Assembly (NCBI RefSeq): GCF_016107655.1
Contig: NZ_JABASX010000003.1
Coordinates: 186,001-250,000 of the forward strand
DNA length: 64,000 nt
Source: Brevibacterium antiquum
Lineage (GTDB): Bacteria > Actinomycetota > Actinomycetes > Actinomycetales > Brevibacteriaceae
Direction of reading: 5' to 3'
Under the pieces are notes generated by a model. The model was not told where the DNA came from, searched no databases, and was given only the letters and a program-made list of their open reading frames with translations. Both the position numbers and the translations under genes were made by a program. Every line of letters begins with the position of its first letter. Position 1 is the first letter of the stretch. Below are positions 188-5,652 of this stretch, in pieces.

Positions 188-259
188 TACTAGCATCATC
201 CATGGCGTGAATGCACGCCGAAGTCGGAAACAGAACATGGCGATCGCCACGGAGGAATG

Positions 260-1099
260 ATGAGCGACGGAAGTTATCAGGCCGAGGTCATCAGCGGCGG
301 CTATCTGCCCATCGATGAAGAGGCCTCAGTCCGCGCCAACAGAGGCTATTGGGACAATTCTGCCGAGGATTACCTGGCCGAGCACGGCAGTGCGCTCGGC
401 GACACGGATTTCATCTGGTGTCCGGAGGGAATCCGCGAATCCGATGTGAATCTGCTCGGCAATGTCGCTCGAAGGCAGATCCTCGAGGTCGGCTGCGGCG
501 CCGGACAGTGCTCGCGCTGGCTGGCCGAGGAAGGGGCGATCGCGACCGGCGTCGACGTATCCTCAGGCATGCTCGAGCAGGCCTCCAGGCTCCAGCGCGA
601 ACACCCGCTCAGCGACGATGCAACTCCCCCGACGTTCCTCCACGCCGATGCCCGCCAGCTGCCGTTCGCGTCGAACAGCTTCGATGTCGGGTTCTCCTCC
701 TACGGCGCACTGCCCTTCGTGAAAGACGCCGATGTCGTCTTCTCCGAGGTCGCTCGTGTGCTTCGACCGGGTGGACGGTGGGCCTTCTCCACCACCCACC
801 CGCTGCGCTGGATGTTTCCCGATGTACCCGGCGAAGCGGGACTGACCGTCGAGTACTCATACTTCGACCGCACGCCGTACGTGGAGATCTCCGCGGACGG
901 GCAGCCGGTCTACGCCGAGCACCACCGGACAATGGGCGATTGGGTGAATCTGCTGGTCACGGCCGGCTTCACGATCGATTCGGTGACGGAGCCGGAATGG
1001 CCGGAGTCCAACCAGACCGCCTGGGGCGGCTGGTCTCCCCTGCGCGGTTCGCTCATGCCCGGCACCGTCATCTTCTCCACCACTCTGAATAAGGACTGA
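260..1099 (+). CDS. Class I SAM-dependent methyltransferase
   Basis: The product (279 aa) has the class I methyltransferase fold. Motif I ILEVGCGAG is at about residues 74-82, followed by an acidic strand end (GVDVS), FLHADARQLPF as the adenine-binding segment, and VLRPGGRWAF after the usual fourth strand. It should transfer a methyl group from SAM to a small molecule or other acceptor; the substrate cannot be read from the sequence. Two ATG codons stand in tandem at 257 and 260. The GGAGG at 251-255 is only 1 base from the first, so 260 is preferred. It is convergent with polA and diverges from the gene at the left edge. Related proteins are often annotated UbiE/COQ5-like, but there is no quinone gene here to support that role. 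Confidence 0.85.
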   Translation: MSDGSYQAEVISGGYLPIDEEASVRANRGYWDNSAEDYLAEHGSALGDTDFIWCPEGIRESDVNLLGNVARRQILEVGCGAGQCSRWLAEEGAIATGVDVSSGMLEQASRLQREHPLSDDATPPTFLHADARQLPFASNSFDVGFSSYGALPFVKDADVVFSEVARVLRPGGRWAFSTTHPLRWMFPDVPGEAGLTVEYSYFDRTPYVEISADGQPVYAEHHRTMGDWVNLLVTAGFTIDSVTEPEWPESNQTAWGGWSPLRGSLMPGTVIFSTTLNKD

Positions 1100-1172: not shown

Positions 1173-1240
1173 GGTCCCCGCTGCGAACAGCAATGCGCAC
1201 CACAGCCCCTCTTCGTGCACCTCGCTTCGCGCTGAACCTA

Positions 1241-1302
1241 TATTCATTGTGCGATTACGGTCGCCCCCAGCCGTATTCTCGAACGTAATCGCACAATGAA
1301 TA
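1241..1302. repeat. Perfect 19-bp inverted repeat with 24-base loop
   Basis: Arm TATTCATTGTGCGATTACG (1241-1259) is matched exactly by its reverse complement at 1284-1302. The loop is 1260-1283. It lies between the convergent methyltransferase and polA genes. A long stem would stop transcription from both sides, but there is no T-tract and the arms are AT-rich compared with the surroundings. A miniature mobile element or a protein-binding site are the alternatives. No target-site duplication is evident. Confidence 0.7.
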
Positions 1303-1308
1303 CCGGTT

Positions 1309-1371
1309 CATCTCCGCGTCACGTCCGCCGTCGCGTCGCGCGCATCTCCGCGTCACGTCCGCCGTCGCGTC
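1309..1371. repeat. Two exact 29-bp direct repeats, period 34
   Basis: A 29-base unit beginning CATCTCCGCGTCACG occurs at 1309-1337 and again without mismatch at 1343-1371, separated by 5 bases. Each unit itself contains repeated CGTC/CGCGTC steps. It directly follows the inverted repeat and ends about 30 bases before the polA stop codon. Unequal copy number between strains would be expected. Confidence 0.7.
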
Positions 1372-1403
1372 ACGTCCACCTCGGTGGCCGGCTCACCGTC
1401 GCG

Positions 1404-4070
1404 TCAGTGGGCTGCGTCGTGCCAGGAGACTCCGGTGCCGACGTTGACGTCGAGGGGTACGTCCAACTCGAAGGCTGATCCCATCTCCTCGGTCACAACC
1501 GCCGTCACGGATTCGACCTCGTCTGGGTGGACGTCGACGATGATCTCGTCATGGACCTGGAGCAGGACCGTCGACTTGAGATCGCCGAGGCGGTCGCTGA
1601 CCTTGAGCATCGCAATCTTCATGATGTCGGCCGCCGATCCCTGAATCGGGGCGTTGAGGGCGGCACGTTCGGCCATGTCCCGCAGCTGCCGCCGGTCGCT
1701 GTGCAGGGCCGGCAGGTACCGCCTTCGACCCATGATGGTCTCTGTGTAACCGTTGGCTCGAGCCTGTTCGACGATCTCATCGAGATAGTCCTTGACCGCG
1801 CCGAAGCGCTCGAAGTACTGCTCCATGAGGTTCTTCGCCTCGTCCACACCGATCGCCAGCTGTCGGGACAGGCCATAGGCGGACAGCCCGTAGACCAGTC
1901 CGTAGGACATGGCCTTGACCTTCGAGCGCATCGCCGAGTCCACTTCGTCGATGCCAACTCCGAAGACCTTCGAACCGACGTATGAGTGCAGATCCTCGCC
2001 ATCCTTGAATGCCTGGATCAGTGCGGCATCGCCGGACAGGTGGGCCATGATGCGCATTTCGATCTGCGAGTAGTCGGCTGTCAGGAGCCGAGATTCTTCG
2101 ACCTCGGGGTCGGAGATGAAGATCTCACGGATACGCCGCCCTGATTCGGTACGGACCGGAATGTTCTGCAGATTCGGGTCGAGCGAGGACAGTCGGCCCG
2201 TCGCAGCGACGGTCTGCTGGTAGGTCGTGTGGATGCGACCGTCCTCGGCCACGGTCTTGAGCAGACCCACGACGGTCTGCTTGAGCTTCGTCGCATCACG
2301 GTAGGCCAGCAGATGCTGCAGGAACGGATGCTCGGTTTTGATGAACAGCTCCGCCAGCGCGTCGGCATCGGTGGTGTATCCGGTCTTCGTACGTTTCGTT
2401 TTGGGCATGTCGAGTTCGTCGAAGAGCACGGCCTGCAGCTGCTTGGGCGAACCGAGATTGACCTCATGGCCGATCGCCTCATAGGCGAGCTTCGCGCTTT
2501 CCTCCGCCTGCTTGGTGAACTCATCGATGAGCCCGGACAGACCCGCTTCATCGACTGCGATGCCTGCCAGCTCCATCTTGGCCAGCACCGGAACCAGCGG
2601 CAGTTCGATGTCGCGGTAGACCTGGCTCATGTTCGCTTCGTCGATTGCCAGTGCCAGGATCTCGTGGACTTCAAGCAGCGCGGCAGCCCTGTATCCGTGT
2701 GTCTGAGCGGTCTGGTCCGAGTCGAGGTCAAGGGCCAGCTGCCCGCTGTCGTTTCCGGGCTCGCTCAGTTCGATTCCGGCTCGTTCGAGCGCGATCTGCG
2801 GCAGCTCGTAGCTGCGCTGATCGGGCACCAGGAGGTAAGCGGCCAGAGCCGTGTCACCGGCAACGTCGTCGACCTCGAGACCCAGTGAGCGCCAGGCCTT
2901 GATCTGCGTCTTCGCGCTGTGCAGGATGAGGGTCTTCGACCGCAGCGCCGAACTCAGATTCGCCACGGCGCTCTCCCCCGCCTCGGCGAGATCGACGACC
3001 CAGGCTTCCTCCGGTGTGCCGGAAACGGCGAGGACTCGAACATCGCCGTGCCCGAGTTCGTAACGCGCGTCGGAGTCAAGCGCGAGCACATCGGAATCAG
3101 ACATCTTCTCTAGCAGCCCTGCAACGTCGAGAGTCTCAACGGAGACTTCGCGCGCGGGTCCGGCGGCTTCCTCGGGTACGGCTTCCTCACCGAAGATCGC
3201 ACTCAGCCGTTTGCCGAGAGCCTGGAATTCGAGCTGGTCGAACAGGCTCGACAGTTCGCTCGGGTCACCCTCGCCCCATTTCAGGTCGGCGTAGGTCAGG
3301 CCCAGGTCGACATCGTCGAGGAGGCGATTGAGTCGGAAGTTGCGTTCGACCTCAGAGACGTGGTCGCGAAGCTTCTCTCCGACTTTGCCCTTGATCGATT
3401 CCGCGTTCTCGAGCACTCCGGGCAGGTCACCGTAGGTTGTCAGCCATTTCGCCGCGGTCTTGTCACCGACACCGGGCACTCCGGGAAGGTTGTCGGCCTT
3501 CTCCCCCACCAGAGCAGCGAGTCCGCGGTAGTTCGCGGGAGTCACCGCGTACTTCTCTTCGATCGCGGCCGGGGTCATGCGATTGAGGTCGCTGACGCCG
3601 CGTTTTGGGTAGAGGATCGTCACGGACTCGTTGGAGAGCTGGAACGAGTCCTTGTCTCCGCTCATCACCTCGACATTGGCGCCTGCTTCGGTGCCCATGC
3701 GGGCCATGGTCGCCAGCGCATCGTCGGCTTCGAACCCGTCTTTGGTCACCACAGTGATCCCCATCGCGACGACGATGTCCTTGATCAGGTCGATCTGGGG
3801 GTGGAACTCCGGTGGCGTCTTGGCCCGTCCGGCCTTGTACTCCGGATACTCTTCGAGGCGGAACGTCTGACGTCCCAGGTCGAAGGCCACGGCCACATGG
3901 CTGGGCGACTCGTCCCTGAGGACATTGATGAGCATCGAGATGAAGCCGTAGATGGCGTTCGTCGACTGGCCGGTGCTGGTGGCGAAGTTCTCCACCGGCA
4001 GGGCGTGGAATGCCCGGTAGGCCAGAGAGTGTCCATCGATGAGCAGGAGGGATTCGTTTACTTGAGTCAC
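1404..4070 (-). CDS. polA: DNA polymerase I
   Basis: The product (888 aa) fills gaps and removes RNA primers during replication and excision repair. The N-terminal 5'-nuclease shows LLLIDGHSLAYRAF, GFEADDALATMAR and a GDKDSFQL segment. The polymerase domain shows motif A DYSQIEMRI (Asp near 666), the O-helix RSKVKAMSYGLVYG (near 715) and motif C QVHDEIIVDV (near 840). The middle 3'-5' exonuclease-like domain has no DxE catalytic motif, as is usual in actinobacteria, so proofreading is not expected. The GTG at 4070 (MTQVNESLLL) is chosen as start because it places the N-terminus as in known Pol I and has AGG 9 bases upstream. An in-frame ATG at 4100 would run into the leader of the divergent gene. 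Confidence 0.97.
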   Translation of the reverse strand: MTQVNESLLLIDGHSLAYRAFHALPVENFATSTGQSTNAIYGFISMLINVLRDESPSHVAVAFDLGRQTFRLEEYPEYKAGRAKTPPEFHPQIDLIKDIVVAMGITVVTKDGFEADDALATMARMGTEAGANVEVMSGDKDSFQLSNESVTILYPKRGVSDLNRMTPAAIEEKYAVTPANYRGLAALVGEKADNLPGVPGVGDKTAAKWLTTYGDLPGVLENAESIKGKVGEKLRDHVSEVERNFRLNRLLDDVDLGLTYADLKWGEGDPSELSSLFDQLEFQALGKRLSAIFGEEAVPEEAAGPAREVSVETLDVAGLLEKMSDSDVLALDSDARYELGHGDVRVLAVSGTPEEAWVVDLAEAGESAVANLSSALRSKTLILHSAKTQIKAWRSLGLEVDDVAGDTALAAYLLVPDQRSYELPQIALERAGIELSEPGNDSGQLALDLDSDQTAQTHGYRAAALLEVHEILALAIDEANMSQVYRDIELPLVPVLAKMELAGIAVDEAGLSGLIDEFTKQAEESAKLAYEAIGHEVNLGSPKQLQAVLFDELDMPKTKRTKTGYTTDADALAELFIKTEHPFLQHLLAYRDATKLKQTVVGLLKTVAEDGRIHTTYQQTVAATGRLSSLDPNLQNIPVRTESGRRIREIFISDPEVEESRLLTADYSQIEMRIMAHLSGDAALIQAFKDGEDLHSYVGSKVFGVGIDEVDSAMRSKVKAMSYGLVYGLSAYGLSRQLAIGVDEAKNLMEQYFERFGAVKDYLDEIVEQARANGYTETIMGRRRYLPALHSDRRQLRDMAERAALNAPIQGSAADIMKIAMLKVSDRLGDLKSTVLLQVHDEIIVDVHPDEVESVTAVVTEEMGSAFELDVPLDVNVGTGVSWHDAAH

Positions 4071-4111
4071 ATGGCATAGCCTATCGTTCAAAACTGACAT
4101 GAAGGAGAACG

Positions 4112-5612: not shown

Positions 5613-5652
5613 AGTGAAGGGCCGGCGAACTTGAGTTCGCCGGCCCTTCACT
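5613..5652. terminator. Strong hairpin terminator after tRNA-Leu
   Basis: A perfect 18-bp stem (5613-5630 with 5635-5652) closes a TTGA loop. It lies downstream of the tRNA and could also serve transcripts arriving from the symporter on the other strand. No T-tract follows. Confidence 0.8.

Follow-up and report, generated by a model that had tools for sequence, protein, structure and literature searches.

The DNA examined here, referred to as the window, is a stretch of 64,000 nucleotides (G000:C18:186001–250000) of the Brevibacterium antiquum genome, which comprises 4,254,817 bases. A gene for a SAM-dependent methyltransferase (257..1099, plus strand) and polA, the gene for DNA polymerase I (1404..4100, minus strand), converge in this window, and the gap between their 3′ ends contains a palindromic element of 60 nt (1242..1301, no strand assigned) that lies 142 nt from the end of the methyltransferase gene and 102 nt from that of polA. 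The arms of the element, 1242–1263 and 1280–1301, are each 22 nt long, with 21 of 22 positions paired, and they enclose a centre of 16 nt (1264–1279). The sequence-only reading had reported a perfect inverted repeat of 19 bp at this site, and we confirmed that the left arm TATTCATTGTGCGATTACG (1241..1259, plus strand) and the right arm CGTAATCGCACAATGAATA (1284..1302, minus strand) are perfectly complementary across a spacer of 24 bases. The inverted repeat extends further than was then reported, given that 1233–1263 pairs with 1280–1310 in arms of 31 nt that are 90% complementary and separated by 16 nt; the outer extensions are 1233..1240 on the plus strand (TGAACC..) and 1303..1310 on the minus strand (..GGTTCA), which pair with each other. 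Between the polA stop codon and the hairpin, an array of degenerate 17-nt units that resemble CGCGGAAGTGAACCTCA in relatives occupies 1305..1403 on the minus strand (approximate limits, set by eye), and it is clearer in relatives G004, G044, and G046. A genome-wide 17-nt repeat was dismissed: allowing one mismatch, the pattern used occurred in two of 57 genus genomes and in the polA gap only.

The 19-bp arm length is rare by chance, as had been proposed: when the window was resampled 20 times under a first-order Markov model, the longest perfect arm (loop of up to 40 nt) measured 10 to 14 bp. The arms are also AT-rich: G+C content was 37% in the arm and 48% in the 60-mer, compared with 70% and 74% in the flanks and 64% in the window. 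RNA folding gave a single long stem for each strand, with predicted energies of −42.9 kcal/mol (z of −8.2) for the plus strand and −46.2 kcal/mol (z of −7.5) for the minus strand. A terminator scan of 1000–1700 returned none, consistent with the described absence of a T-tract. A known Rfam family and a phage or plasmid origin were rejected: the Rfam search of 1000–1700 yielded nothing above the gathering score, the only candidate being mir-586 with 37 bits against a gathering score of 89, and neither the 96-bp region around the hairpin matched phages nor the 304-bp polA gap matched plasmids.

To place the element among the hairpins of its genome, we sampled 1,213,752 bases (28.5% of the genome: C16 and C20 whole and 364 kb of C18, a convenience choice), called genes with a crude rule based on G+C content by codon position, and counted as long those hairpins with a score of 12 or more. 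Convergent gaps contained 42 long hairpins in 30.8 kb, or 1.37 per kb, compared with 0.80 per kb in tandem gaps, 0.12 per kb in divergent gaps, and 0.035 per kb inside genes. A long hairpin was present in 38 of the 150 convergent gaps longer than 30 nt, whereas the corresponding number in three Markov controls was 1, 1, and 0; a long hairpin between converging genes is thus ordinary in this genome. The window itself has a second perfect hairpin at 5613–5652, with arms of 18 bp and a loop of 4 nt (AGTGAAGGGCCGGCGAAC-ttga), which lies in a tandem gap according to the crude caller and is a member of a tetraloop class found at gene ends. Two small groups of tetraloop hairpins, at G000:C16:132858, C16:338435, and C20:86126 and at G000:C16:212009 and C16:495461, respectively, each have a common arm sequence, and one copy of the two groups is located in a divergent gap.

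A group among the hairpins of the genome follows a fixed plan, in which an arm of 22 nt, a centre of 16 nt, and a second arm of 22 nt add up to 60 nt. Gap-free alignment of 17 copies revealed invariant residues G8, G22, A23, G40, and C53, and the triplets TCG and CGA border the centre in nearly all copies. The copies form two clear sequence groups, alpha (AACGGTTGGTAAGTTCTnnTCGA) and beta (nnTCATTGTGGGCTnnCGTTCGA), whose arm letters differ widely. The polA copy belongs to beta, its minus strand ATTCATTGTGCGATTACGTTCGAGAAT being comparable with CGTCATTGTGGACTTACGTTCGAAAAT at C16:53292.

A covariance model built from these 17 copies, 15 from the same genome and two from relatives (model R2), detected 33 places across the genome at an E value of 1 or better, 32 of them at 0.01 or better, a count that may be a lower bound given that scoring covered 150 of the 2669 first-look candidates. 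Eighteen of these 33 places lie outside the training set; fifteen of the eighteen are full-length at 60 nt, one measures 61 nt, and two are truncated at the end of a contig. We then prepared a leave-out model (R3) from 14 copies of the same genome, with copies at the polA site excluded. R3 assigned the polA copy 42.9 bits (E value of 1.9e-9 in 1.21 Mb) over all 60 positions without gaps, and at an E value of 10 or better it otherwise detected the 14 training copies and seven matches with 16.2 bits or less. Applied to 56 polA loci, R3 recovered the copies of G000, G046, G049, G004, and G044. The G020 copy was not recovered at an E value of 1, and the link to the family is therefore carried by the G000-type sequence.

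These scores bear on whether the polA element is an ordinary single hairpin whose likeness to the other 60-nt elements is coincidental. In favour of coincidence, convergent gaps often contain long hairpins built on other plans, and L033, a strong hairpin unrelated to the family, obtained 23.9 bits with R3, which shows how much of a score mere pairing earns. BLAST did not find a second copy either, the 96-bp region matching only itself and three stretches of 14 to 17 bases in the genome. The arm pattern likewise matched only itself. The score of 42.9 bits for a gap-free match, with other nontraining places in 1.21 Mb at 16.2 bits at most, argues against coincidence, as do the arm-end and loop-edge letters common to the polA copy and the nonorthologous copy at C16:53292, and we consider this explanation very improbable. 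The sequence-only reading had proposed a search of the arm against the genome, with a single conserved copy suggesting a site and multiple copies a repeat family. The arm is indeed unique by BLAST and arm pattern, which under this criterion would speak against a repeat family, but the single-copy inference misleads, in that about 30 diverged copies emerge once the 22-16-22 plan is modelled; geometry scanning and the covariance models rule out a single-copy site. The polA hairpin belongs, as a diverged copy, to a family of 60-nt palindromes dispersed through the genome in about 30 copies.

The length of the family was also examined without assuming the geometry. When arms within four mismatches of AACGGTTGGTAAGTTC were allowed to pair at whatever span, to a maximum of 200, there were 27 matches to the left arm and 23 to the right, most of them unpaired at this tolerance, and all nine of the alpha pairs spanned exactly 60 nt. 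With five mismatches, nine pairs were found at 60 nt and five at other spans. The corresponding test for beta was weak, its motif being too loose for the purpose, and gave two pairs at 60 nt and three elsewhere with three mismatches, and noise with four. As separate observations, contigs C21 and C22 of G000 start with the same 61 bases (G000:C21:1–61 and G000:C22:1–61), 57 of which belong to an element, so that both contigs begin inside the same element; long palindromes break assembly, and the assembly probably broke at one 60-nt element to give both starts.

With the crude caller, the 31 full copies were assigned to convergent gaps (15), tandem gaps (10), a divergent gap (1), and doubtful open reading frames (5), and the family is thus dispersed and extragenic (26 of 31 copies intergenic) with a preference for gene 3′ ends. 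To assess the pairing of the arms, we collected 28 alpha copies from named genomes with a fetch pattern that was silent on arm positions 17 to 22. Positions 17 to 20 were paired in 27, 20, 19, and 28 copies, respectively, compared with 13.6, 9.8, 11.6, and 17.5 expected from column make-up; positions 21 and 22 were paired in 24 and 28 of 28 copies and hardly vary, hence they are uninformative. In nine copies from the G000 sample, positions 17 to 20 were paired in 6, 7, 8, and 7, compared with 3.6, 2.6, 4.0, and 5.7 expected. Orthologous copies were counted separately in both sets. At the polA site of six species (G000, G004, G044, G046, G020, and G049), seven of the 22 pairs have changed on both sides, and 91.7% of cells were paired compared with 85.8% (SD of 1.6) in shuffles, a count that leans to pairing given that two of the six rows, those of G020 and G049, had been identified from their paired ends. 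Of the eight cells changed on both sides, five derive from G020, and the G049 copy is partly broken. The covariation count on the 17-copy set is inflated, most copies having been picked for pairing, and that on a larger pooled set partly so, with many loci coming from model searches; the test with 28 alpha copies is the fair one. The arms of the family change together and pairing is kept. Six of 17 beta copies have arm position 20 unpaired with position 41 beside the centre, reading GTTCG..CGCAC on one strand.

Maintained pairing is relevant to the possibility that the element acts at the DNA level, as a rigid 60-bp dyad of two 22-bp half sites bound by a nucleoid protein or a recombinase, with its place at gene ends reflecting where insertions are tolerated. 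The fixed length, apparent in both the nine alpha pairs within four mismatches and the fifteen exactly 60-nt places outside R2 training, is consistent with such a site, as are the TCG and CGA triplets beside the centre. A further consistent feature is the mismatches on the transcribed strand of nine tandem copies (2 G-T and 4 A-C), which show no wobble preference and lend no support to an RNA-level preference, although the counts are very few; the script considered 24 of the 31 copies, dropping the five in open reading frames, the divergent copy, and the 61-nt copy. Changes in the arms nevertheless preserve self-pairing rather than one sequence, which a site bound as duplex would not require, few copies occupy divergent gaps, and alpha and beta arm letters are widely different. 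We regard a DNA-level site as unlikely.

We examined the distribution of the family with the alpha arm pattern and with R2. A scan of named genomes with the former identified 26 stretches, all 26 of them from Brevibacterium; B. aurantiacum ATCC 9175 is among the strains with alpha elements. R2 matched at 1e-6 in 23 of 57 genus genomes with 96 candidates scored per genome, and 20 or more rows, with both strands counted, were found in twelve of them (G000, G003, G004, G015, G016, G020, G027, G044, G046, G049, G052, and G056). Gamma (GGTCACGCGAAACTCGAAAAAGTCGTC-GCCAGT-...), a different dispersed hairpin, was matched in 22 of the 57 genomes, with four or more rows in twelve (G002, G008, G013, G017, G023, G028, G038, G040, G041, G045, G048, and G053). 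No genome among the 57 is rich in both the 60-nt family and gamma. Like the 60-nt family, gamma is dispersed and palindromic in other Brevibacterium species and it fills the same polA gap in five species, but its stem is longer, its loop is 6 nt in the best copies, and its stem contains A/T runs.

Among the 37 genomes whose polA genes are nearest, the polA gap contains beta in six, gamma in five, another hairpin with a score of 12 or more in seven, and none so strong in 18, with no methyltransferase neighbour found in the remaining one. On the polA tree, these labels require 12 changes, compared with 17.5 by shuffling. In nineteen more distant genomes the gap was judged by the best inverted repeat alone; the remaining genome of the 57 yielded no match to polA. 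In G003, G016, and G056, only 8 nt separate polA from the methyltransferase gene and no hairpin is present there. The gap in G015 contains an apparent partial beta element (by eye).

Such presence and absence in close relatives, together with the possible remnant in G015, would be compatible with a selfish REP-like or MITE-like repeat that is copied by some enzyme and tolerated without function in gene 3′ flanks, as would the dispersed copies abundant in 12 of 57 genus genomes. A further point in favour of such a repeat is that one orthologous gene (MKTKLIAIAA... or MQTKLIAIAA...) is followed by alpha in G056 and by beta in G000 (L234 and L226, by eye), a gap that is half comparable given that the far-side gene differs. 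Copies are, on the other hand, at the same place in several species (at polA, and at L219 and L233 by eye), and compensating changes keep their pairing. A search for PF01797 (Y1_Tnp) gave no match in the G000 genome but was positive in six of 14 control genomes. The description of the element as MITE-like was not supported: in the flanking sequences of copies from several genomes, 66 of alpha and 16 of beta, no direct duplication exceeded the offset control, with identical flanks of 2 nt at seven of the 66 alpha copies (control, 6), of 3 nt at one (control, 1), and none longer, and none at the 16 beta copies. A functionless selfish repeat is, in our estimation, quite unlikely. The term REP-like is the closest of those proposed, since REPs or palindromic units are likewise dispersed and extragenic, although the family, with its 33 places, is not REP in the strict sense: it consists of near-perfect 60-nt palindromes in a genome where we found no Y1/RAYT gene, whereas REP is accompanied by a RAYT transposase. 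REPs usually exceed 100 copies, according to PMC2817692, compared with about 30 here.

Several arrangements of elements were noted in their own right. In five species (L210–L214, about 972–2447), alpha elements lie about 1.35 kb apart on either side of a gene with the start MSYW.SKPMTF..., and a G000 gene with a somewhat similar start (L215) is likewise flanked. An insertion sequence flanked by hairpins was rejected, in that the enclosed product (G056 copy) matched only REase_MTES_1575 and DUF559, below Pfam cut-offs, and no transposase family. In G046 (L221, G046:C21:1–8000), the genes whose products start with MDLELNDIQQ and MDTLLNAEEREF are duplicated in inverted order, the whole being bordered at either end by an alpha element, which is either an inverted duplication or an assembly artefact. 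An integron attC site, a candidate raised by the 60-nt length, was also rejected because R-box ends did not fit by eye.

Beyond the genus, 149 genomes drawn from across the order included eight with matches, four of them in two other genera. One genome from another family of the order, g24, has arms of ACCGGGGGTGAAGTTGACGTCG and retains the 60-nt plan with these other arm letters, which is again as expected of a DNA site. A class-wide draw of 296 genomes gave four with matches including G000; the other three were weak and two of them were 61 nt.

Our preferred interpretation, held with moderate confidence, is that the polA element is a bidirectional 3′-end hairpin without a U-tract, serving as a terminator or as a protector of mRNA ends. 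When read from either side, the element would fold into a long stem within the 3′ untranslated region of the mRNA concerned, that of the methyltransferase gene or that of polA. Such a stem might terminate transcription without a U-tract, or it might be a barrier at which the 3′ end of the mRNA is fixed and shielded once Rho has released the transcript, and the element would thereby limit antisense read-through between the converging genes. The analysis shows membership of the family, a fixed geometry, the preference for gene 3′ ends, and maintained pairing; stopping of RNA polymerase or protection of the RNA end at the element is inferred. A canonical Rho-independent terminator was rejected, no U-tract being present at the polA site or in the pooled family flanks, where base counts for 66 alpha and 16 beta copies revealed no T run. 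The earlier statement that the hairpin is not a standard terminator is right as far as the T-tract goes; the location at gene ends, however, is indicative of U-less 3′-end formation as described for actinobacteria.

Mycobacterial genes are stated in PMC12288462 to use mostly I-shaped terminators that lack a U tail and lie within 50 bp of the stop codon, and the same source gives Rho-dependent termination as dominant. For Streptomyces clavuligerus, PMC8269248 reports 353 highly structured transcript ends that lack U, and allows both intrinsic termination and the ends of Rho-dependent transcripts; intrinsic termination and Rho-dependent 3′ ends both fit the present element. The likeness consists in a long stem at gene 3′ ends without a U-tract in a host with a high G+C content (PMC12288462, PMC8269248), and the polA element is a strong stem after gene ends. 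The passages of those sources drawn on here do not describe such ends as a sequence-related dispersed family or as fixed in length, in contrast to the centre of 16 nt and total of 60 nt found here, and the stop codons lie 142 and 102 nt away from the polA copy, farther than the 50 bp stated for mycobacteria. Bidirectional terminators of Bacillus cereus resemble the element in that one hairpin serves two converging genes and evolves by compensatory change, as set out in PMC5381666, but the 60-nt elements have no U-tract on either side and form a repeated family.

Other observations count against a 3′-end hairpin. The 16-nt centre exceeds the loop of 4 to 8 nt given as optimal in E. coli in PMC8269248, and the 8-nt gaps of relatives G003, G016, and G056 are free of hairpins. 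The concentration in G020 of the cells changed on both sides at the polA site, the partly broken G049 copy, and the mismatches of the nine tandem copies, with their very few counts and no wobble preference, weigh on the same side. A terminator also offers no reason for an exact length of 60 nt, and this fixed length is explained by neither the intrinsic nor the Rho-dependent reading. Twenty-two base pairs amount to about two turns of A-form RNA, and a 22-bp arm would, as a speculation, suit a factor that measures stems. A bolder proposal, which we consider improbable, sees in the 60-nt palindromes a punctuation module, mobile or copied, at gene ends of Brevibacterium and some other actinobacteria, whose 22-bp arms and 16-nt centre would be measured by such a factor, with whole hairpin families taking one another's place at the same gene ends from clade to clade. 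A search of the literature on hairpins or palindromes of Brevibacterium returned nothing relevant, which does not in itself establish absence from print.

The function of the polA element as a 3′-end hairpin is probably ordinary in kind; of more interest are the fixed length and the exchange of hairpin families from clade to clade. When the two arms of a repeat drift together, a BLAST search with one arm can overlook the family. How transcripts end without U-tracts in bacteria with a high G+C content is a disputed matter, and a family of near-perfect hairpins that have one length but varied sequences, and that close relatives may possess or lack at a given gene end, constitutes a natural experiment on this matter.
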